The position numbers and the translations under genes were made by a program. DNA of 44,216 nt from positions 1 through 44,216 of the forward strand of contig JAFMKU010000014.1 of the NCBI GenBank assembly GCA_017852795.1. Direction: 5' to 3'. This DNA is from Candidatus Neomicrothrix sp. (GTDB taxonomy: Bacteria; Actinomycetota; Acidimicrobiia; Acidimicrobiales; Aldehydirespiratoraceae). Of this stretch, positions 27,804 to 38,082 are shown one piece after another; the stretch's first letter is position 1, and each line of letters begins with the position of its first letter. The notes beneath the pieces are model-generated. The model was not told the DNA's origin and did no database searches. It was given only the letters and a program-made list of their open reading frames with translations.

Positions 27804-28298
27804 ATGGCCCTTCATCTGGTTCGTCACGCCACCGCCCGAGACCGTTCACGCTGGGACGGCGACGACCTTGACCGTCCGCTCACCGAGCAGGGCCACGAAC
27901 AAGCCGAAGCGCTCCGTGGGTTTTTCGTTGACCGACCAGTGAGAGGCATCTACTCCTCGCAGGCTACGCGTTGCCTACAAACGGTCGAACCGCTGGCGGC
28001 CAGCTTGGGGTTGGTGGTTGAGCGCCGTCGAGAACTCACCGAAGGAGCCAAAGTCGTCAACCTTCTTGAACTCTTGAGAAGCGAAGCCTCGGTCGAAGGC
28101 GACTTGGTCCTGTGCAGCCACGGCGACCTCATCCCTGAAGTACTCAACTATCTGCTGCGTGACGGATTGCCCATCGTGGGAGGTCGTGGCTGCGAAAAAG
28201 GTTCGGTCTGGACGCTGGAAACCGTCGGGCACGACTTCGTCCGCGGCTGCTACACCGCCCGTTTTGAAACGGGCGACCAGGAATTACCGAACCTTTAG
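27804..28298 (+). CDS. SixA-like histidine phosphatase
   Basis: A 164-residue member of the histidine phosphatase superfamily. The catalytic start LVRHATARDRSRW and the second His in LVLCSHGDLIPEVL are visible, with YSSQATRCLQTVEPLA between them. It follows the SufR-like gene by six bases, so it is probably co-transcribed with it. Its stop TAG overlaps the TAA of the convergent monooxygenase fusion in TTAG. Small size and lack of mutase motifs suggest a phosphatase on a protein or small molecule; the substrate is unknown. Confidence 0.87.
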   Translation: MALHLVRHATARDRSRWDGDDLDRPLTEQGHEQAEALRGFFVDRPVRGIYSSQATRCLQTVEPLAASLGLVVERRRELTEGAKVVNLLELLRSEASVEGDLVLCSHGDLIPEVLNYLLRDGLPIVGGRGCEKGSVWTLETVGHDFVRGCYTARFETGDQELPNL

Positions 28299-30400
28299 CG
28301 GTCGGGCAGCACCCGAATCGTGGAGAAACACATCTCATCCACGGTGCCTTCATTCCAGGTCACATAGCGGGGCTCAGGCATGGCTTGCAGCGTTCGATCC
28401 CACCAGCATTCGATCCGAACGATGTCCGATTGCGTGACCTTGATTTCCTCGACCGGCTCGTAGCTCAACTGCCACTCAAAGCTCCAGACCGGAATGTCGA
28501 GCAGTATCCGTTCGTCCGCGGTGTCCGGGTTCAACGTCATCCGGTACGAAGCACCGAATTCATGCATGTGCCCCAACACCGAATAGATCGTGCCTGACTG
28601 TCCGACCAGCCGATCACACGAGCTGTGTGAGGTGGTCCCGTCGAGTTTTGCGTAGTCGGCGAGCTCACCATCGCAGGCGACAAGGAGTGCGTCGGGGATG
28701 GAACTCGCACCCCTGCCATATTTTTCGCCAACCTCAGCCAGCACCGCGTCGCGGTCACACAGCGGTGCCCCGGTTGCTTCCTCCTCGGGGGTGCAGGGCA
28801 GCTCGGCCGGGGTCAAATAGTTCTGGCTCGACACCCGCTTCAGGCCAGCCGCTGCCTGTTCGGCCGTGGCTTCTTGCAGGATCACCGACGAGCGATCGGC
28901 GGGGGTTTCGTGGTCGTAGTGGTAGTGCACCTGGTTGACAACGAACGAACCAGGTGGCGCCCAGATGCCGTAACCGTCAGGAAAATGTGAAGGCTGTTGC
29001 CCTGGTGCCCAACCAGCAAGCTGGCCCATGCTGCCCGACAGACCGTTCCCGCCGTAGCAGGTCCAGCCCGGCTTGCCGTCGGCCCCGTCACGGCTTTGCG
29101 CCTCTTGAACCAGCTCGGCTTGCACCAGCGTCACGATCGAATGATGCACGATCGAGGTTTGATCTGGGACGAACGTGAACCCGGTAATCCAGGTGCCGTC
29201 ACCCTCCGGATCCGGGATCGGAAGCATCTGGCAGCGATAGTCATCGGGCCGATCAACCGATCCAACGTAGGCTTGCGCCGGCAACAAGACGAGGTCTTCG
29301 CGTATGGGATTGACCAGCTTTCGGGAAGCCACAAGCGGGGTGTCTGGAGCAACGTCGAGACCACCACCGGTTGCCGCCCAATCGGCAATCAACTGCAGTT
29401 CCTCAGCGCTCAAAGACCAATCGTTGTGAAACGCCGGACTGTCCTTGGACGGAAGCCACGGGGGCATGTATCCGGCCCCGGTGACCAAAGCGATGTCCTT
29501 GGCAATCACCGCAACATCGGCTGCGGTATCCATGGCCAGCGTGCTCCAACCTGGACCTCCGCTGGTGTGGCAGCCCACACATCGCTGTTCCAGCAACGGT
29601 TGCACGTGTTCGGCGAACGCGCCCCCGGCAAACTCAAAGGCCGGAAGTTCGGTGTCGAGTGATCCGGCCGTGAGCTCGCCGGTGACCCGTTGGGCTACCA
29701 GATCGAACTCCAGCACGATCTCGTCGCTGGTGTGAGCCAGACGGGCAATGTTGATGGGGCCAACCCCAAATGCCGAACCGAGAACTGTGGTCGTCATCGT
29801 GGCCGTGAGCTGCTGCTCATCAACTTGTACCTCTCCGGCGAACTCCACGGCCAGGGTGGTTTCTTTGATGGTGAGATCACCTTGGAGGGTCACCGCCGCC
29901 CGCTCGCCAGCGACAAAGGTCGCGGGCATGCCTTCAATCTGAGTGGTCACAAACCGGGCGAACGGCCAATGCGTCGACTCCAAAAAGTCATGCCGAAGCC
30001 GCTTGTCTCGCAGCGACGAATCGGAGGTGAACATTTCCACGTTGACCACGACCTCGCCGACCACGGAGGCGGCCGGATCAACCGTGTCAATGACGATGTC
30101 GCCACCGATCACGGTGCTGGTCCCCACCGTGATCTTGGACGACCCGGCGAGCCGTTCCTCCACCCGATAGCGGGCCGCCGAACCGTTCCCTGGCTCAATA
30201 CGAAACAGCCACTCTCGTTGCTCATCGAGCGAGGCGACGTCCACCGTTTGCGCGTCAACACCTTGTTCTTGCGCCTCGCCGGAGGCAAACACCCACGACC
30301 ACTGATCGCGGGTCACTACTGCCAGAAGTCCGACCGTCATGACCAGTAGCACTGCGACCCGGCCCGGGTCTAGCCGCCGAAATCCGCTGCGAACGTGCAT
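28295..30400 (-). CDS. Membrane-anchored fusion: YceI-like domain + cytochrome c domain + PHM/DBM-type copper monooxygenase
   Basis: A 701-residue extracytoplasmic protein. Order: membrane anchor (about 13-30), YceI-like lipocalin domain (about 58-235, DFLESTHWPFARFVTTQIEG), c-type heme domain with Cys274-x-x-Cys277-His278 (CVGCH) and a possible Met axial ligand in YMPPW (312), then a copper type II ascorbate-dependent monooxygenase module (about 370-700). Ligand motifs of the latter match the PHM set: HH 419-420, His492 (VNQVHYH), HMH 611-613, Met690 (DEMC). Such enzymes hydroxylate C-H bonds with two uncoupled coppers; here the attached heme could supply electrons. It is last in the ccm gene block, 34 bases after ccmI. 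Confidence 0.85.
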   Translation of the reverse strand: MHVRSGFRRLDPGRVAVLLVMTVGLLAVVTRDQWSWVFASGEAQEQGVDAQTVDVASLDEQREWLFRIEPGNGSAARYRVEERLAGSSKITVGTSTVIGGDIVIDTVDPAASVVGEVVVNVEMFTSDSSLRDKRLRHDFLESTHWPFARFVTTQIEGMPATFVAGERAAVTLQGDLTIKETTLAVEFAGEVQVDEQQLTATMTTTVLGSAFGVGPINIARLAHTSDEIVLEFDLVAQRVTGELTAGSLDTELPAFEFAGGAFAEHVQPLLEQRCVGCHTSGGPGWSTLAMDTAADVAVIAKDIALVTGAGYMPPWLPSKDSPAFHNDWSLSAEELQLIADWAATGGGLDVAPDTPLVASRKLVNPIREDLVLLPAQAYVGSVDRPDDYRCQMLPIPDPEGDGTWITGFTFVPDQTSIVHHSIVTLVQAELVQEAQSRDGADGKPGWTCYGGNGLSGSMGQLAGWAPGQQPSHFPDGYGIWAPPGSFVVNQVHYHYDHETPADRSSVILQEATAEQAAAGLKRVSSQNYLTPAELPCTPEEEATGAPLCDRDAVLAEVGEKYGRGASSIPDALLVACDGELADYAKLDGTTSHSSCDRLVGQSGTIYSVLGHMHEFGASYRMTLNPDTADERILLDIPVWSFEWQLSYEPVEEIKVTQSDIVRIECWWDRTLQAMPEPRYVTWNEGTVDEMCFSTIRVLPDR

Positions 30401-30434: not shown

Positions 30435-31589
30435 TTAGCCGCCTACTTGTTGCCGGAGTCCGAAGTCATTCAGCAACACTCTCAGATCCGCGGGCCGGAC
30501 CGGTAGGCCATCAAAGATCGCTAGATCAACCGCCGCCTCGTTCACGTTGCCCAAAAAATTGTGGACGAACGCCCGGTAGACGAGCGCTTCCGGATGGCTG
30601 GGGTCGGCGGCCAAAGCCCGATCGAGGTAGCTCAACCCCAATTCGGCTGCTGCCAGCGATTCTTCGGTCGCGGAGCGGGCCAGCAACCATCCCTGTCCGG
30701 CCAGCAAATCGGGATCGGTGGGACGTTCTTCCAGCACCGATTGCAGGATCTCTAACCCGGCAAACAATTGGTTGTCGGAGGCCAGCGCCTCCGCGGCCAG
30801 AAGCACATCGTTGACCGACAGTCCGCTGGCGGAAAACCGCGGTGGTTCATCAACCAGCAGCACAGCGGACACTCGAGCGAGCGCTTCGGCTTGGGCTGCT
30901 TCGGCAACCCGTTCCCGTAAACCCTGCTGCTCGACGAGTTGTTCGATAAACGGAGGGGAGGACAGCCGATCGAGCGCCTCCAGATGGGCAAAAGCGGCGA
31001 CCGCGTCGCCTTCGTCGAGCGCCAGGACCGTGGCAAACACCCGGGCGTCGGGATAACTACCATCGATCATCACCGCGTCTTCTACCAGTGGCCGAGCGGC
31101 GATACCTTCGCCACTCAGGCGCATCAACCACGCCTTGTAGGTCAACGCCTCAGTATTGGACGGTTGCAGGTCGAGGACTTGGTCATAGGTAGCAATCGCG
31201 GCCGGTAAATCACCGGACCCAAACTGCTGTTGCGCGTCGAACAGCAACTCCCGGGTGCTGGTCCTGATATCCCCAGTGATCGTGTCGCCTTCACCCCGGT
31301 TCCCCGAAAACGCAAGGAGCACCACCGACGCCAGTATCACCACCGCCGCGACCCCAACCAGCCAGAGCCAGCCGCTAGATGCTCTGCCGCGGGCGCCACC
31401 GGTCGTGTCGTTAGCCAGGTTTTGACCTTCGAGCGCCCGAAGCACCCGCGCCGTTCGTGTCGTGTAATCCGAACGCAGGGCCTGATAGTCGGCTTCGTCA
31501 AGGTCCCCCGCCGCGTATTCGCGGTCGAGATCGTCCAGCGAACTCAGCAGGAAGTCCCGCTCCTCAACCAGACGGTCGGGATCGCTCAC
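30435..31589 (-). CDS. ccmI: Cytochrome c biogenesis TPR protein (CcmI/CycH-like)
   Basis: A 384-residue protein: N-terminal cytoplasmic coiled segment (ERDFLLSSLDDLDREYAAGDLDEADY, typical of CcmI), one membrane helix (about 73-94), then periplasm-side tetratricopeptide-like helices (TREL, AIATYDQVLDLQPSNTEAL, AALAYRAF-like repeats). CcmI presents apocytochrome c to the ligation complex. GTG start overlaps the ccmH stop as GTGA. The TPR part is diverged, so the assignment leans on position and the N-terminal motif. Confidence 0.82.
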   Translation of the reverse strand: MSDPDRLVEERDFLLSSLDDLDREYAAGDLDEADYQALRSDYTTRTARVLRALEGQNLANDTTGGARGRASSGWLWLVGVAAVVILASVVLLAFSGNRGEGDTITGDIRTSTRELLFDAQQQFGSGDLPAAIATYDQVLDLQPSNTEALTYKAWLMRLSGEGIAARPLVEDAVMIDGSYPDARVFATVLALDEGDAVAAFAHLEALDRLSSPPFIEQLVEQQGLRERVAEAAQAEALARVSAVLLVDEPPRFSASGLSVNDVLLAAEALASDNQLFAGLEILQSVLEERPTDPDLLAGQGWLLARSATEESLAAAELGLSYLDRALAADPSHPEALVYRAFVHNFLGNVNEAAVDLAIFDGLPVRPADLRVLLNDFGLRQQVGG

Positions 31590-32044
31590 CGCTGGCCGTC
31601 CCGGACCCGGGCCACTACGGCCTCGTCGTCTTCGGAGGCCTCCAATTCACCTTCGAGGCGCCACCGTCGAAAAACCAGGGTCAACCCCGAGAGGGCAACC
31701 GCGGAAGCCACCACCGGAACGATCCAGACCAAACTGGTGATCCCTTCGGTGGCCGGCGTGTAGTCAATGTCCTCGCCAAAGGTGGCGACCAACTGCTCAC
31801 GAATGAACCCGTCCGAACGACCCTCATCAACCCAGACCCGGATCTGGCGGCGGATGTTTCGCGAAACCACCACGTCGCTTTCCGCCACCGACTGACCCTG
31901 ACAGACCGGGCAGGCAAAGTCTTTCGCAATCTCATAGGCCCGGTCGGCGTTGGTCAACGCCGGTCCTTCATCAATCGCGGCGAACACCAGCGACGAGACC
32001 GACACCACCGCGACCAGCATCCAGATCAACGTTCGTTTTGTCAC
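31586..32044 (-). CDS. ccmH: Cytochrome c maturation thiol oxidoreductase CcmH
   Basis: A 152-residue protein with an N-terminal signal anchor (about 5-22), the redox motif FACPVCQGQSVAES (Cys45, Cys48) that defines CcmH, a three-helix domain (EQLVATFGEDIDYTP), and a C-terminal membrane helix (about 105-125) with a short charged tail. CcmH reduces the CxxCH of apocytochrome and works with CcmF and CcmI. GTG start shared with the ccmG stop (GTGA). Confidence 0.94.
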   Translation of the reverse strand: MTKRTLIWMLVAVVSVSSLVFAAIDEGPALTNADRAYEIAKDFACPVCQGQSVAESDVVVSRNIRRQIRVWVDEGRSDGFIREQLVATFGEDIDYTPATEGITSLVWIVPVVASAVALSGLTLVFRRWRLEGELEASEDDEAVVARVRDGQR

Positions 32045-32595
32045 TGTTGTACCCCCGCCAACAACGTCTCGATCCGTTGGTCGAGATCATCGGCGTTGAC
32101 CCCGCCAACCAGTTTGGCCGCCACCACCCCGCTGGGCGCCACCAGATAACTTTCCGGAACTGCGGTCACCCCGTAAGCCACCGCGAGGGAACCAACCCCT
32201 TCGGTCAGCACCGGCCAGTCGCCTCCGTTTTCCGCGAAGAACGCTTTGACGTTGGCCACCGAATCATCAAACGCCACCGACACCACCAGCGCATCACCAA
32301 TTGCTCGGTGGCGTTCCGAGAAGCGCACCAGTTCCGGGTGTTCGTCGATACAGGGCACGCAGGTAGTGGAGAAGAAGTTGACCAGCGCCCACTGCCCTCG
32401 GTGTTGGTCAAGGTCAAACCAGATCCCGTCAAGATCTGCCCCTTCGGTCAGCGGGGCCACTCGCCCTACCGCCATCCCGTTGACTGCACGATCCGACGAC
32501 GGGTCCCGGGTGGCCAGCAAACCGACCAGCAGCGCCAAAGCCACCGCGATCGGGACCACGACCCACACCGCGGTTCGTGGCGTGTCACGACGCAT
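32041..32595 (-). CDS. ccmG: Thiol:disulfide interchange protein CcmG/ResA-like
   Basis: A 184-residue membrane-anchored thioredoxin-fold protein. Anchor at about 9-27, active site FFSTTCVPCIDEHPEL (Cys79, Cys82), and the cis-Pro loop GVTAVPESYLVAPSGVV, with the VPE feature common in CcmG. It keeps CcmH or apocytochrome thiols reduced outside the cell membrane. The ATG at 32595 overlaps the end of ccmF by 11 bases; an upstream extension of the frame lies inside ccmF and is not used. Confidence 0.93.
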   Translation of the reverse strand: MRRDTPRTAVWVVVPIAVALALLVGLLATRDPSSDRAVNGMAVGRVAPLTEGADLDGIWFDLDQHRGQWALVNFFSTTCVPCIDEHPELVRFSERHRAIGDALVVSVAFDDSVANVKAFFAENGGDWPVLTEGVGSLAVAYGVTAVPESYLVAPSGVVAAKLVGGVNADDLDQRIETLLAGVQQ

Positions 32596-34579
32596 CCGAA
32601 TCCTCCCCCGACTCCGGTTGGGGTTTGGTTGCGGTTCGGGCCCCCACCTTTGCCGACGCCGGTAGCAGCGGGTCGCGTCGACGGCCCGGAACAACCGCGA
32701 GGACGGTACCGAACGCCATCACCAAGCCCCCGATCCACAACCAGACGATCAACGGTTGCACGGTGGCCCGCAGCACTACTTCGTCGTTGCCGCCCTCCGG
32801 GAACTGCAACACCGACAAGGCAATGTCGTCTCGCCAAGTAGAGCGGACACTAGGAATGCCAATGGTCTGTCCGGCAAACGGATAGGTCGCGATGCCCGGT
32901 TCGTACACCTTGACGTCATCGACAAGCACCCGGGCCGATCGTTGTACTCGGTTGCTGTGCTCCTCTAGTTGGGAACCTTCGTAGCTGAGCGAGTGGCCCG
33001 AAATCTCGACCCGGTCGCCGGGAACCATGGTGAACTCACCCTGCCGCACATAGGAGTGGCTGGCGGCGAACGCCACCGCGATCAACACCACCCCGAAGTG
33101 GACGATCATTCCTCCGTTGGTCCGGCCCACCAAACCTCGCCATCCCTGACGGCGCGAGGCCAGAGCAACTTGTCGAAGCGCGGAACCTCCGGAGAACCCG
33201 CCAAGCCCGAACGCCAGCAGCGGTGACCAACCGCGCGCTCCCAGCAGCAACGCCACCACCATGGTGACCGCGGCGATCACCGCCGGACCCAGCAGCCGGG
33301 TGCTGAGCACTTCGCCGCTGGCTTTCCGCCACGGCAACACCGGAGCGACCGCCATCAAGAACAACAACACGAACCCGACCGGCATGGTCATTCGCTCAAA
33401 GTAGGGGTTGCCGACGGCAATGGTCCGCCCGTCGATCGCTTCGACGATCAGCGGAAACACCGTTCCCAGCAGCACCACAAACGCGAACACTGCGAACAGG
33501 ACGTTGTTGGCCAGAAACGCCCCTTCCCTCGACACCGGCGAGTCGATACGGCCCGGTGATCGCAAAGCGTCGCCCCGCCAGGCAATCAGGCTCAACGAAA
33601 CGATCACGATCAACGCGAAGAACCCGAGAATCGCCGGTCCGATACCCGACTCGACGAACGCATGAACCGACTGCAACACCCCGGAGCGGGTGATGAACGT
33701 TCCCAAAATCGTCAACGAAAACGTGGCGATCACCAGCGACAAGTTCCAGACCCGAAGCATCCCCCGACGCTCCTGCACCATCACCGAATGAATGAACGCC
33801 GTCCCGGTGAGCCACGGCAGAAACGACGCGTTCTCGACCGGGTCCCACGCCCAGTAGCCACCCCATCCCAGCGTCTCGTAGCTCCACCACGCCCCGAGCA
33901 CGATCCCTAACGTCAGGAACCCCCAGGCCATCACCGTCCAGCGGCGGGTCGCCAACAACCACCCTTCCCCAACCCGACCAGTGACCAACGCCCCGATCGC
34001 GAACGCGAACGGCACCGTAAACCCGACGTAACCCAGGTACAGCACCGGAGGGTGGAACGCCATCAAAATGTGGTTCTGTAGCAGCGGGTTGGGTCCGGGA
34101 CCGTCGTAGCCCACCGGTGGATCAAAGCGAATGAACGGATCGGCGGGCCCCAACATCAACAAGAAAAAGAACAACGACACCACGAACAACGTCAACAGGA
34201 CCCAACCCACCATGCGGTCCTCGGCTTGATGGCGGAACTTGACGACCACCGCCACGACGTACCCGCAGAGGATCAGGGTCCACAGCAGGATCGAACCTTC
34301 GAGCGCTGACCACAAAGTGGCGACGTTAAACAACGCCGGGGTTCGACTGGATCCGTGTTCGGCGACGAACGCCACCGTGAAATCTCTGGTGATCAACGCC
34401 CGCTCCATCACCACAAAGGCCGCCAGCGCCGCCCCCATCATGACGAACACCAACAGTCGAGCTTCTGAAGCCCACCGGCTACGCCGCCCGGCTAGACCGG
34501 CCGCCACCACCAGCAGTCCGGCGATCGCCGCCGCGACGCCAACCGAGACCGCCATCGTTCCCAACGAAACGTTGCTCAT
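32585..34579 (-). CDS. ccmF: Heme lyase subunit CcmF
   Basis: A 664-residue polytopic membrane protein, about 15 helices, that attaches heme to apocytochrome c. The tryptophan-rich heme-handling WWD motif GWGGYWAWDPVENASFLPW is at about 238-256, with His residues HILMAFHPPVLYLG (170, 176) and FIHSVM (264) as likely heme ligands. A long soluble loop precedes the last helix (about 530-610), as in other CcmF proteins. Lies 36 bases after ccmE. Confidence 0.96.
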   Translation of the reverse strand: MSNVSLGTMAVSVGVAAAIAGLLVVAAGLAGRRSRWASEARLLVFVMMGAALAAFVVMERALITRDFTVAFVAEHGSSRTPALFNVATLWSALEGSILLWTLILCGYVVAVVVKFRHQAEDRMVGWVLLTLFVVSLFFFLLMLGPADPFIRFDPPVGYDGPGPNPLLQNHILMAFHPPVLYLGYVGFTVPFAFAIGALVTGRVGEGWLLATRRWTVMAWGFLTLGIVLGAWWSYETLGWGGYWAWDPVENASFLPWLTGTAFIHSVMVQERRGMLRVWNLSLVIATFSLTILGTFITRSGVLQSVHAFVESGIGPAILGFFALIVIVSLSLIAWRGDALRSPGRIDSPVSREGAFLANNVLFAVFAFVVLLGTVFPLIVEAIDGRTIAVGNPYFERMTMPVGFVLLFLMAVAPVLPWRKASGEVLSTRLLGPAVIAAVTMVVALLLGARGWSPLLAFGLGGFSGGSALRQVALASRRQGWRGLVGRTNGGMIVHFGVVLIAVAFAASHSYVRQGEFTMVPGDRVEISGHSLSYEGSQLEEHSNRVQRSARVLVDDVKVYEPGIATYPFAGQTIGIPSVRSTWRDDIALSVLQFPEGGNDEVVLRATVQPLIVWLWIGGLVMAFGTVLAVVPGRRRDPLLPASAKVGARTATKPQPESGEDSDAS

Positions 34580-34615: not shown

Positions 34616-35155
34616 TCATGAACATCCTCCGGTTGCGGCCTGCGCCTCGCTTTGCTGCAACCGCTGTTCGTAGTCCTCGTCGTTGCGGTAGTCGTTGTCG
34701 TGTTTGACCCGCATCCGGTCCGAGGCGAAATACCAGCCGTCGCCAGCCATCCCTGCGAACCCTTCAACCTCAGGTGAACCTTCAACCCAGTTGCCGTCGA
34801 GCACCACCGGCACGTCGGGTTGGAACAAGTCGGCGGGATCTCCCCGATGGACCACGTCCACGGTGCGCCCACCGAACGACAACGAGAACGCCACCACCGT
34901 CTCCGAACCCAGCGCCGATTCCACGATTGAGCAACCGATGGGTGAACCCTGCAACACGAACCGTTCGGCACCGAGTTCGCTGCGGCGAGCCACCGCCTCG
35001 TCGGCGTTGTAGAAGTAGAGCGACCCGGACACCAAGTTCCAGATCAGCAGCATCACCCCGGCGACCAGCGCCCCTGCGGCCACCAACGGAATGACCCGCC
35101 GGCGCTGACGCGTCGGCCGGGGATCCTGCGGAGTCAGGTTCGACTCAGTAGTCAT
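34616..35155 (-). CDS. ccmE: Heme chaperone CcmE
   Basis: Membrane-anchored chaperone that binds heme covalently through a His; 179 residues from the ATG at 35155. Anchor at about 21-43, a beta-barrel OB-fold domain, and the heme-binding motif VKHDNDY with His152 and a following Tyr. This is the His form, not the CxxxY form of archaeal CcmE. The ATG overlaps the ccmD stop as ATGA. The upstream extension of the frame overlaps ccmD. Confidence 0.93.
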   Translation of the reverse strand: MTTESNLTPQDPRPTRQRRRVIPLVAAGALVAGVMLLIWNLVSGSLYFYNADEAVARRSELGAERFVLQGSPIGCSIVESALGSETVVAFSLSFGGRTVDVVHRGDPADLFQPDVPVVLDGNWVEGSPEVEGFAGMAGDGWYFASDRMRVKHDNDYRNDEDYEQRLQQSEAQAATGGCS

Positions 35156-35304
35156 GGGCGATCTCGGGTGGTCATCCAGCGCTGACGGTCCGCGGGGACC
35201 CGCGTCGACAAGCGACGACCTCGGGCCACTACCCGAAACCCGTACAACGCCAACGCAGCCAGCCACACGCCCCAACCAACGAGCAAGTATCCGAGATGGG
35301 TCAC
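35152..35304 (-). CDS. ccmD: Small heme-exporter protein CcmD
   Basis: A 50-residue single-helix protein (MTHLGYLLVGWGVWLAALAL, then YGFRVVARGRR and a basic tail), just the form expected of CcmD, which helps release holo-CcmE from the CcmABC complex. GTG start overlaps the ccmC stop as GTGA (35301-35304), and the stop overlaps the ccmE ATG as ATGA (35152-35155). It is short enough to be missed by gene callers. Confidence 0.88.
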   Translation of the reverse strand: MTHLGYLLVGWGVWLAALALYGFRVVARGRRLSTRVPADRQRWMTTRDRP

Positions 35305-36095
35305 GCTTCACCTCCCGAAGCCGACGAGCCAGCTGCGGCCGCTTCGGAGCGTCGGGCTTCCAGCGCCTCGTCGAGGTCTTCGGCCCGAGCTTGATGTTCG
35401 AGCCAGCCGACCCGGAACCGATGGATCATCGCCCAGACGAAAAACAGCAGACCGACCACAAGCCCGAACACCAACGTGAACAAAGTGAGGTCTTCGAGTT
35501 TGCCGTCGGTCAACGATGCTTTCTGATGCAGGGTCCGGTCGAACCACCATTCGACCGACCGGTTCACGATCGGGATGTTGATCGCAGCAAGCAGTCCGAC
35601 GATGGCAGCCCGAGTCGAAACGGCCGGGTCGTCGCCACCCGACGACCGAACGACCAGATAGCCGACCATCAGCAGGAACAAGATGAGGGTGGTGACCAGA
35701 CGGACATCGCCCCAATCCCAGTAGGTGTTCCAGGTTGGGCGACCCCAGATCGAACCGGTGAACAGCGTCAACGCGCAAAACATGACGCCTATCTCGGCCG
35801 CGGCGTGTGCGGTGATGTCCCACCAAGATGAACGTTTCCAGAGCCACATGGCCGAACCCGCCGCGGTGGTGAAAAACGCCACGTAGGTGAGGATCGCCGA
35901 GGGCACGTGAATGAAGATGAGCCGAACCGCGTCGCCTTGTTCGTCATCGGGCGGCGCCGCGAAAAACGCCAACAACACGAGCGCCACAAGCCCGGCGAGC
36001 ACCACCAAGCCCAGTCCCCGGGTGGCCCGAGAACCGGTATGAGCCCTTGTCGGGTCGCCGTCGCCACGATCTTGCGCTGCTACTTGAGTTGTCAC
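35301..36095 (-). CDS. ccmC: Heme-handling membrane protein CcmC
   Basis: A 264-residue protein with six membrane helices that loads heme onto CcmE. WWD motif GSIWGRPTWNTYWDWGDVRL at about 115-132; heme-ligand His candidates at LIFIHVPSA (63) and a later HQKAS loop. GTG start at 36095 follows GGAGG at a good distance and overlaps the ccmB stop as GTGA. The C-terminal tail is longer than in proteobacteria and rich in Ala/Glu/Ser. Confidence 0.95.
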   Translation of the reverse strand: MTTQVAAQDRGDGDPTRAHTGSRATRGLGLVVLAGLVALVLLAFFAAPPDDEQGDAVRLIFIHVPSAILTYVAFFTTAAGSAMWLWKRSSWWDITAHAAAEIGVMFCALTLFTGSIWGRPTWNTYWDWGDVRLVTTLILFLLMVGYLVVRSSGGDDPAVSTRAAIVGLLAAINIPIVNRSVEWWFDRTLHQKASLTDGKLEDLTLFTLVFGLVVGLLFFVWAMIHRFRVGWLEHQARAEDLDEALEARRSEAAAAGSSASGGEA

Positions 36096-36760
36096 GTTTC
36101 CTCCAAGAGCACGCCGTAGGCCAATGCTCCCAACCCGCTGTTGAGAACGCCAAACCCGGCCAGGAGTCCTAACCAGGCCCATCCCTGCACTGCAACCGAG
36201 CCTAAGGCGTCATCGAAGGCTCGGGTGGCACTAATCAGCACCGGAGCCAGCACCGGTAACAACAAGATGGGTAGGACCGTTTCGCGGGCCCGAATCCCCG
36301 CCACGAGCGCGCCAAGCAGGGTGCCGGCAGCGGCGACCGCCATCGTCGCCACCACGCAGGTCAAAACGAGCAGCCCCCAGTCGTCGATTTCGGCACCGTA
36401 AAACACCAGTACCCCACCGACGAGAACGATTTCGACGGCCAGCAATTCCACGGCAACCGCCAGTGCTTTACCGACAAACACCGCAACCGGTTCGATCCCG
36501 GCCAGCAGCAACGCGCGCCGCGCCCCGTCGCTGGTTTCGATCGACGTCGAACGCTGCACGGCCAGATTGGTCACGAACAGCACCGTCATCCAAAACAGGC
36601 CCGGGGTGGCCCGCTCTAACACTGGACGGTTGGCGTCCAAAGCAAACCCGAACAGGACCAGTACCAGTGCCGCGAACGGGATGACCTGACTGGCGGTCAC
36701 CCGCGACCGCCATTCGATCCGCAGATCTTTGCCGGCCACCGCCGCGATGTCAGCGAGCAT
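36092..36760 (-). CDS. ccmB: Heme exporter membrane subunit CcmB
   Basis: A 222-residue membrane subunit of the CcmAB ABC transporter, six helices. FWMTVLFVTNLAVQRSTSIETSDGARRALLLAGIEP and the LPILLLPVLAPVLISATRA stretch are typical. ATG at 36760 with GGAGGT upstream; it overlaps the last 11 bases of ccmA. The energy of CcmAB is used to release holo-CcmE. Confidence 0.94.
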   Translation of the reverse strand: MLADIAAVAGKDLRIEWRSRVTASQVIPFAALVLVLFGFALDANRPVLERATPGLFWMTVLFVTNLAVQRSTSIETSDGARRALLLAGIEPVAVFVGKALAVAVELLAVEIVLVGGVLVFYGAEIDDWGLLVLTCVVATMAVAAAGTLLGALVAGIRARETVLPILLLPVLAPVLISATRAFDDALGSVAVQGWAWLGLLAGFGVLNSGLGALAYGVLLEET

Positions 36761-37415
36761 GATCCACCTCCGGTCCGTGGTCGCCGACCACCATCCCACC
36801 GGCGACGGCGAGGTGGCGGGTGGCGAGGTCAACGGTGCGGTCCAGTTCATGCGAGGCCAGCATCACCGTCGCCCCGGCCGAGGATGCGTCTTTGACCAGC
36901 GCATCAACCAAGTCCCGGCCTCCGGCGTCGAGTCCGGCGTGGGGTTCATCGAGCAGCCACAGGCGAGGCCGGCGAACCACCACCGCGGCCAGCGCGGTGC
37001 GCCGCCGTTGACCGGCTGACAGGTGGCGGACCGCCACGTCATGGATGCGCGACGGCACACCGAGACGATCAAGCGCCGTCGGTACCTGAGCCTCTTCGAC
37101 TCGCGACGCCCGAGCCCAGAACCGCAGGTTCTCGGTGACCGTCAAGTCCTCATAGAGCGCGGTGTCGTGGCCGAGCAGACCAACCGACCGTCGGATGGCG
37201 GGGCGTTCGCTGCGAACATCGTGACCCAACACCTGACCGTGACCCGACTCGATCCGCAGCAGACCGGCACAGACCCGCAGCAATGTCGACTTTCCAGCAC
37301 CGTTAGGCCCATGAATCAGGACGACTTCGCCCGCTTCGACCGTCAGATCAACCCCCGCCAGACCCGGGAACCGGCCCAGCAGCGCAACAACGCCGGTCAG
37401 GGAAATGATGGCCAT
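36750..37415 (-). CDS. ccmA: Heme exporter ATP-binding subunit CcmA
   Basis: A 221-residue ABC ATPase. Walker A GPNGAGKST at 36-44, signature LSAGQRRR at 132-139, Walker B LWLLDEPHAGLD from 152, and H-loop ASHELDR. LSAGQ followed by basic residues fits CcmA. First gene of the ccm operon. ATG at 37415 (MAIISLTGVV) with a TAGCGT box seven bases upstream and no clear Shine-Dalgarno sequence; the longer open frame to 37739 is not CcmA-like. Confidence 0.93.
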   Translation of the reverse strand: MAIISLTGVVALLGRFPGLAGVDLTVEAGEVVLIHGPNGAGKSTLLRVCAGLLRIESGHGQVLGHDVRSERPAIRRSVGLLGHDTALYEDLTVTENLRFWARASRVEEAQVPTALDRLGVPSRIHDVAVRHLSAGQRRRTALAAVVVRRPRLWLLDEPHAGLDAGGRDLVDALVKDASSAGATVMLASHELDRTVDLATRHLAVAGGMVVGDHGPEVDHAR

Positions 37416-37422
37416 CGCCAAA

Positions 37423-37428
37423 ACGCTA
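37423..37428 (-). promoter_or_regulatory. -10 box for a leaderless ccm operon transcript
   Basis: TAGCGT on the minus strand, seven bases before the ccmA ATG at 37415. It would be the main promoter of the ccm operon. Confidence 0.35.
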
Positions 37429-37487
37429 CCGCCAGGAACGACCCCTCGGTTCATGGCCCACGGTTCCCCAACGTTGGCAACCGGGCG

Positions 37488-37493
37488 TAGTCT
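37488..37493 (+). promoter_or_regulatory. -10 box for a leaderless lipoprotein transcript
   Basis: TAGTCT followed by seven bases and the GTG at 37501. It points away from the ccmA promoter 60 bases to the left. Confidence 0.35.
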
Positions 37494-37500
37494 CGCGAAT

Positions 37501-38082
37501 GTGCATCGCCTTCGCGCTCTCACCGTGCTGTCTGTCGTTCTGCTGGGAGCGGTCGGCTGCGCGAGCGAGAACGACTCCCAACCAAACCTCGATGATCCCG
37601 CAGCGGCCGCCGCGGCCGCGCTCACCACGGGAGCGTCGACCACCCCAAGCACCGTGCCCACCGGGGACGAAGCTCCACCGGTGACGGTGGCCGGAGAAAT
37701 CATCAACGAATACACGCTGGGTCTTGATGACTGTTTCAACCGAGACGAGCACCTTGACGGCGGAAAGAAAGTGGTGACTACAACCCGGCTGCCCTGCGAA
37801 ACGCCCCATGACGCGCAGATCTTTCACACCCTCAGCTACCCGGCCGATGGCCAAACCCCGTTTCCTGGTCTCGACGTCATCGAAGATTTCGCGATGGCCT
37901 CCTGCTACCAGTCATTTGGCGACTGGGTCGGCATCTCCTACGAGCTGAGCGCACTGGAGATTCGGGTCATTACCCCGAACCGGTCAAACTACGAACAGAA
38001 CCGGTACCGAGGGATCCACTGCTACGTCGAGCACGATAAGGGTGAGGCGCTCACTGGTTCGAGTCGGGCCAGTCGGCGCTAA
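37501..38082 (+). CDS. Lipoprotein with septum-formation-type domain
   Basis: A 193-residue protein. Signal peptide MHRLRALTVLSVVLLGAVGC with a lipobox ending at Cys20, an Ala/Thr/Pro linker (about 33-60), then a domain with four cysteines (DDCFN, RLPCETPHDAQIFH, MASCYQSFGDWVG, GIHCYVEH). The pattern of C-F, C-PH-A-FH and C-F-Y matches the Septum_form family of actinobacterial surface proteins. GTG start with a TAGTCT box seven bases upstream. Convergent with the GH63-like gene, sharing a CTAA stop tetramer. Confidence 0.8.
   Translation: MHRLRALTVLSVVLLGAVGCASENDSQPNLDDPAAAAAAALTTGASTTPSTVPTGDEAPPVTVAGEIINEYTLGLDDCFNRDEHLDGGKKVVTTTRLPCETPHDAQIFHTLSYPADGQTPFPGLDVIEDFAMASCYQSFGDWVGISYELSALEIRVITPNRSNYEQNRYRGIHCYVEHDKGEALTGSSRASRR

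Follow-up and report, generated by a model that had tools for sequence, protein, structure and literature searches.

In Candidatus Neomicrothrix sp., the ccm operon ends with a gene whose single product chain combines a YceI barrel with a heme c domain and a PHM/DBM-type copper module. We propose, with a probability of roughly 70%, that this product is a two-copper monooxygenase of the PHM/DBM superfamily that is anchored in the membrane, faces away from the cytoplasm and takes its electrons from the heme c bound covalently in the same chain instead of from ascorbate. Computation established the domain order, the folds of the YceI and copper parts, the invariance of the copper and heme ligands and the co-location of the gene with the ccm operon.

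Results

A fusion gene behind the ccm operon

The analysis covered a window of 44,216 nucleotides, by which we mean the whole stretch of DNA under study (Table 1). The fusion gene is a single open reading frame, for which an earlier note, made from the sequence of this DNA, had given the correct position and length; we add that it lies on the minus strand. All motifs listed in that note were found at the expected residues, namely CVGCH (274-278) with the axial methionine candidate M312 in YMPPW for the heme c site, H419, H420 and H492 as ligands of CuH, and H611, H613 (HMH, 611-613) and M690 as ligands of CuM. Arginines precede the single hydrophobic helix at the N terminus, so that, following the positive-inside rule, the rest of the protein is predicted to be extracytoplasmic. 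Attachment of heme c also takes place outside the cytoplasm.

Table 1. Positions of the fusion gene, its parts and the neighboring ccm genes in the window
Feature	Position	Strand	Evidence
YceI-cytochrome c-PHM fusion gene, 701 aa plus stop, ATG start	28295..30400	minus	Translation, homologues, AlphaFold model
N-terminal membrane anchor, residues 12-39	30284..30367	minus	Hydrophobic peak 12-30; model helix 12-38
YceI lipocalin-like barrel, residues 63-240	29681..30214	minus	Pfam YceI; best structure match BcnA 5ixh
Monoheme c-type cytochrome domain, residues 262-348	29357..29617	minus	Ligands invariant in 59/59; profile match to cytochrome c chains
PHM/DBM-type copper monooxygenase module, residues 367-701	28298..29302	minus	PHM superposition, residue pairing, invariance
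TPR protein in CcmI-like position, directly upstream of the fusion	30435..31589	minus	TPR Pfam matches; conserved neighbor
ccmH	31586..32044	minus	Pfam CcmH
ccmF heme lyase	32585..34579	minus	Pfam, NCBIfam
ccmE	34616..35311	minus	Pfam CcmE
ccmC	35301..36182	minus	NCBIfam ccmC
ccmB	36092..36850	minus	Pfam CcmB
ccmA-like ABC ATPase, start codon not settled	36750..37739	minus	Pfam ABC_tran; upstream of ccmB

The gene begins 34 bp downstream of the TPR gene and is co-directional with the ccmA-B-C-E-F-H-TPR operon. Its assignment to the end of this operon is supported; the gene closes the operon in much of the window's family, and the same arrangement, with the fusion behind the TPR gene at gaps of 4-91 bp, is kept at 20 loci of relatives. 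Homologues outside the ccm-linked clade have other locations, and comparison of their neighboring genes gave no constant neighbor or pathway. At its other end, the fusion gene meets a convergent histidine phosphatase gene (27804-28298, plus strand), which overlaps its stop codon by 4 bases and is likewise kept in relatives.

The genome holds another YceI gene (L162:6101-6838, minus strand, contig C98). It closes a run of heme biosynthesis genes comprising hemC, hemD, hemB and a class III aminotransferase in the hemL position, with genes for cytochrome b and cytochrome c nearby; both YceI genes of this genome hence end heme-related operons. In the same locus, a single 406-aa open reading frame (L162:9148-10365, minus strand) fuses HemD, the uroporphyrinogen-III synthase, to a GNAT acetyltransferase domain.

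Domain assignment by sequence and structure

Scanned as a single protein, the fusion matches Pfam YceI at residues 86-236 with 63.4 bits (cut-off 23.7), while Cytochrome_CBB3 (266-317), Cu2_monooxygen (384-495; 21.3 against a cut-off of 30) and Cu2_monoox_C (601-693; 13.7 against 23) stay below their cut-offs. When 59 homologues were scanned separately at E 0.01 or better, these three families matched 50, 45 and 39 of them, respectively, with best E-values of 8e-7, 2e-8 and 4e-11.

An AlphaFold model of the entire protein, computed with the homologue alignment supplied, was confident (pLDDT 89.5, pTM 0.81). In VIA-align comparisons, residues 367-701 superposed on PHM (6ala) with a Z-score of 22.3 (2.5 A over 257 residues, 16% identity) and the copper module on human DBH (4zel) with 21.3. 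The YceI region (about 63-243) gave Z 18.4 on BcnA (5ixh; 2.3 A over 157 residues), 17.7 on E. coli YceI and 16.1 on the S. degradans protein 2x32; altogether, nine YceI-type structure entries matched the barrel at Z 16.1-18.4. Above the Pfam cut-off and lipocalin-like in fold, the barrel belongs to the YceI family; its extent, previously put at about 58-235, is here about 63-240.

Profile alignment with rat PHM, whose residue numbers were counted from the chain and are consistent throughout, paired H419/H420 with H107/H108, H492 with H172, Q490 with Q170, M690 with M314 and Q644 with Q272. Four cysteines were paired as well (C390-C81, C448-C126, C665-C293 and C691-C315). The C-terminal half alone found no direct profile match among PDB chains, and the assignment of H611/H613 as the HxH pair therefore rests on motif order, the fold and the Cu2_monoox_C match, within which both invariant histidines lie. 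By the tests made, the copper module belongs to the PHM/DBM superfamily, and at the level of fold the structure prediction proposed earlier as a check agrees with this assignment.

The residues R240, N316 and Y318 of PHM, which hold the peptide carboxylate, are replaced in the fusion. N316 pairs with F692 in the profile alignment, and L609 and T694 stand at the places of R240 and Y318, as counted from the anchor residues. This argues against peptide amidation, and the fusion is, judging from these replacements, probably not a peptidylglycine amidating enzyme.

The heme domain shows the features of a c-type cytochrome, namely CxxCH, the distal methionine M312, predicted export via the anchor and an adjacent ccm operon. 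A profile of residues 246-364 matched the heme domain of hydrazine synthase alpha (1.1e-6) and CcoP (3.9e-5). Modelled on its own, the domain was predicted with partial confidence (pLDDT 79.9), and Foldseek returned no significant match for it, the top entry being the X183 cytochrome 8q1v from Teredinibacter at E 2.7. The missing match does not mean a new fold; with no significant fold match for the isolated domain, its class is assigned by sequence.

Conservation and taxonomic spread

A similarity search across 61 genomes, that is the window's own and 60 relatives, found homologues in 33 of the 36 other genomes of the family, most of them full length and 48-63% identical; the gene also occurs in part of the order. 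Overall similarity was the sole criterion for a set of 38 sequences. All 38 have H419, H420, H492, H611, H613 and M690 and keep each of the eight copper-module cysteines, and CxxCH and M312 are present in 37/38, that is, in every such homologue having the heme domain. A second set of 59 aligned homologues was recruited by DNA patterns including the DEMC motif, by which M690 and C691 were partly selected; here, the remaining copper ligands as well as C274, C277, H278 and M312 are invariant in 59/59. The earlier note had named homologues devoid of CxxCH and copper ligands as grounds against an active fusion; in both sets the copper ligands are invariant, and so are the heme ligands wherever the heme domain is present. 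One PHM-only homologue with neither heme nor YceI was found in the same order (L038:5132-6292), with similar ones in family f23.

A single-sequence scan of contigs with over-specific peptide patterns gave no relatives, and an alignment-based scan of species genomes gave more than 550 related stretches. Among the best 80 of these, the order YceI-cytochrome c-copper recurs in many Acidimicrobiia and in metagenome-assembled genomes (MAGs) labelled Gemmatimonadota, Rhodothermales and Chloroflexota, answering the earlier call for a search by domain order; some taxon labels that stand on one MAG each (Bifidobacterium, Thermoflexus, Acidobacteria) seem questionable. That chance or an assembly artefact had joined unrelated genes, as the low single-sequence Pfam scores of the copper and heme parts might have hinted, is next to impossible: it is refuted by the recurrence of the same order in dozens of assemblies that are independent of one another, among them the complete genome of Aquihabitans sp. 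G128 (L090). Homology, conservation and the confident model together back the earlier view of an anchored fusion of YceI, heme c and PHM/DBM parts. The fusion is real and conserved and probably active.

Several clades in Acidimicrobiales and Chloroflexota consist of proteins in which cytochrome c is joined to the copper module and YceI is absent, and distant Gemmatimonadota paralogues also keep the two fused. Heme with copper is the constant association and YceI the variable part. In a quick tree of the shared core, which has an uncertain root and long branches, the YceI label needs 5 changes compared with 27 after shuffling, a pattern that fits few gains and several losses. A Rosetta-stone test did not find, as a rule, a separate YceI gene beside the YceI-less cytochrome c-PHM genes. 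Because a number of lineages do without YceI, the enzyme does not depend on this domain.

Two groups of YceI-less genes have neighborhoods of their own. In marine Acidimicrobiales (L119, L122, L123, L127 and L128), the cytochrome c-PHM gene lies between NUDIX and Amidohydro_2 genes on the same strand, possibly a hint to the substrate. In one Gemmatimonadota MAG of 3.3 Mb (G453, the MAG of L107), some 25-30 YceI-less cytochrome c-PHM paralogues occur (L142-L160; also in G450 and G452). Nearly all of them directly adjoin a secreted partner of about 300 aa with no clear Pfam family and the motifs P.FEGWY.NPDG, FGYFN.N.EE, QPTHF and CCWTNGYV, making the pair a candidate two-gene copper oxygenase system.

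Discussion

Electron supply and the role of the barrel

Delivery of electrons from heme to copper is the best and most economical reading, because nearly all copper-module homologues keep the heme domain, even those without YceI. In the proposed mechanism, electrons would reach the heme one at a time; their donor would be either menaquinol, which the YceI barrel would hold or give access to, or a different cytochrome of the envelope. The heme would pass an electron to CuH, and CuM would activate O2 and hydroxylate a C-H bond of a substrate that is probably not a glycine-extended peptide. A functional precedent is Cbp2D of Cellvibrio, a protein with YceI and cytochromes whose heme domain X183 reduces bacterial copper LPMOs (PMC8981238). 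The genome also encodes a cytochrome b and has three further matches to Cytochrome_CBB3, so that a quinol-oxidizing chain appears to be present. Counting against heme-fed copper are the existence of the heme-free homologue L038 and the slowness of electron transfer from X183 to the LPMO, as described by its authors (PMC10154616). Of the earlier interpretation, the fusion itself is supported and the transfer from heme to copper is probable; calling the enzyme 'self-contained' was too strong.

Within this best explanation, the barrel could serve in two ways, or it might do no more than position the enzyme. As a quinol port, it would pass electrons from menaquinol via heme c to copper, making the protein a quinol-dependent hydroxylase. 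Most YceI structures contain an isoprenoid, some of them ubiquinone-8 (PMC9113575; PMC8981238), genes for YceI homologues often neighbor that of cytochrome b561 (PMC9113575), and motif and fold of the family are canonical in the fusion. A quinone role is proposed on the strength of these known ligands and of the LPMO-linked Cbp2D. Yet several related clades keep heme and copper without YceI, Actinobacteria generally use menaquinone, for which the literature searched holds no complex with YceI, and YceI-bound quinone is not known from direct evidence to have a redox role. We therefore put forward only tentatively that menaquinol at YceI, heme c and the PHM-type dicopper center form one intramolecular electron chain, and with it that a bacterial family couples PHM/DBM chemistry to respiration. 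Alternatively, the barrel would hold a hydrophobic substrate, such as a polyprenyl, carotenoid-like or fatty molecule, and other envelope cytochromes or a bc complex would reduce the heme. This is in line with the lipid-binding nature of the YceI family and with the replaced peptide-binding residues of PHM, and the absence of YceI in relatives could reflect a change of substrate; neighboring genes, however, point to no lipid pathway, and we regard this role as marginally less probable than the quinol port, neither of them reaching even odds.

A different function altogether, in which the fusion mainly scavenges O2, radicals or peroxide, or handles copper, with no defined hydroxylation substrate, appears improbable. 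Such a role could appeal to the defense against lipid peroxyl radicals that the YceI protein BcnA provides jointly with cytochrome b561 (PMC9113575), but it would leave the full retention of both copper sites, of Q490 and Q644 and of the monooxygenase-typical disulfide cysteines unaccounted for. Heme-fed hydroxylation by the two copper sites remains our preferred reading.

Relation to known systems

PHM and DBH are textbook ascorbate-dependent enzymes that have been studied almost only in animals; DBH carries an N-terminal DOMON domain. With them, the fusion shares the two-domain copper fold, the HH+H set of CuH, the HxH+Met set of CuM and the equivalents of Q170 and Q272 and of the disulfide cysteines C81/C126 and C293/C315. 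It differs in being bacterial, membrane-anchored, joined to heme c and YceI and only about 16% identical. Moreover, it lacks C114/C131, has the extra conserved cysteines 536, 548, 576 and 595, and its homologues carry F, Y or L in place of N316, mostly T or S at the place of Y318 and mostly L at that of R240.

Cbp2D of Cellvibrio japonicus and the X158/X183 proteins, which come from cellulose-degrading bacteria, also combine a YceI-like domain and a c-type cytochrome in one secreted protein (PMC8981238). Their chains, however, contain a carbohydrate-binding module and no copper monooxygenase, the partner being an LPMO, and the heme domains of Cbp2D/X183 and of the fusion are not clearly homologous. 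The YceI lipocalins (E. coli YceI, TT1927b and BcnA) share fold and motif over residues 63-240 but are stand-alone proteins, often beside cytochrome b561, and are not fused to a cytochrome c or a copper enzyme (PMC9113575). In the open-access literature searched, we found no paper on a YceI-cytochrome c-PHM fusion, and searches for bacterial PHM gave nothing relevant; as far as such a search can suggest, the fusion is apparently undescribed there.

Together, these findings suggest that, in a fusion conserved in many bacteria, a copper enzyme of the type that serves animals in hormone production can be supplied by the respiratory chain and not by vitamin C. The fusion would give the YceI lipocalins, for which no role is agreed, a link with a defined redox enzyme. 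A large bacterial branch would offer an expressible model system for PHM/DBM chemistry, and its built-in heme donor would open the long-debated route of electrons to CuH and from there to CuM to heme spectroscopy.
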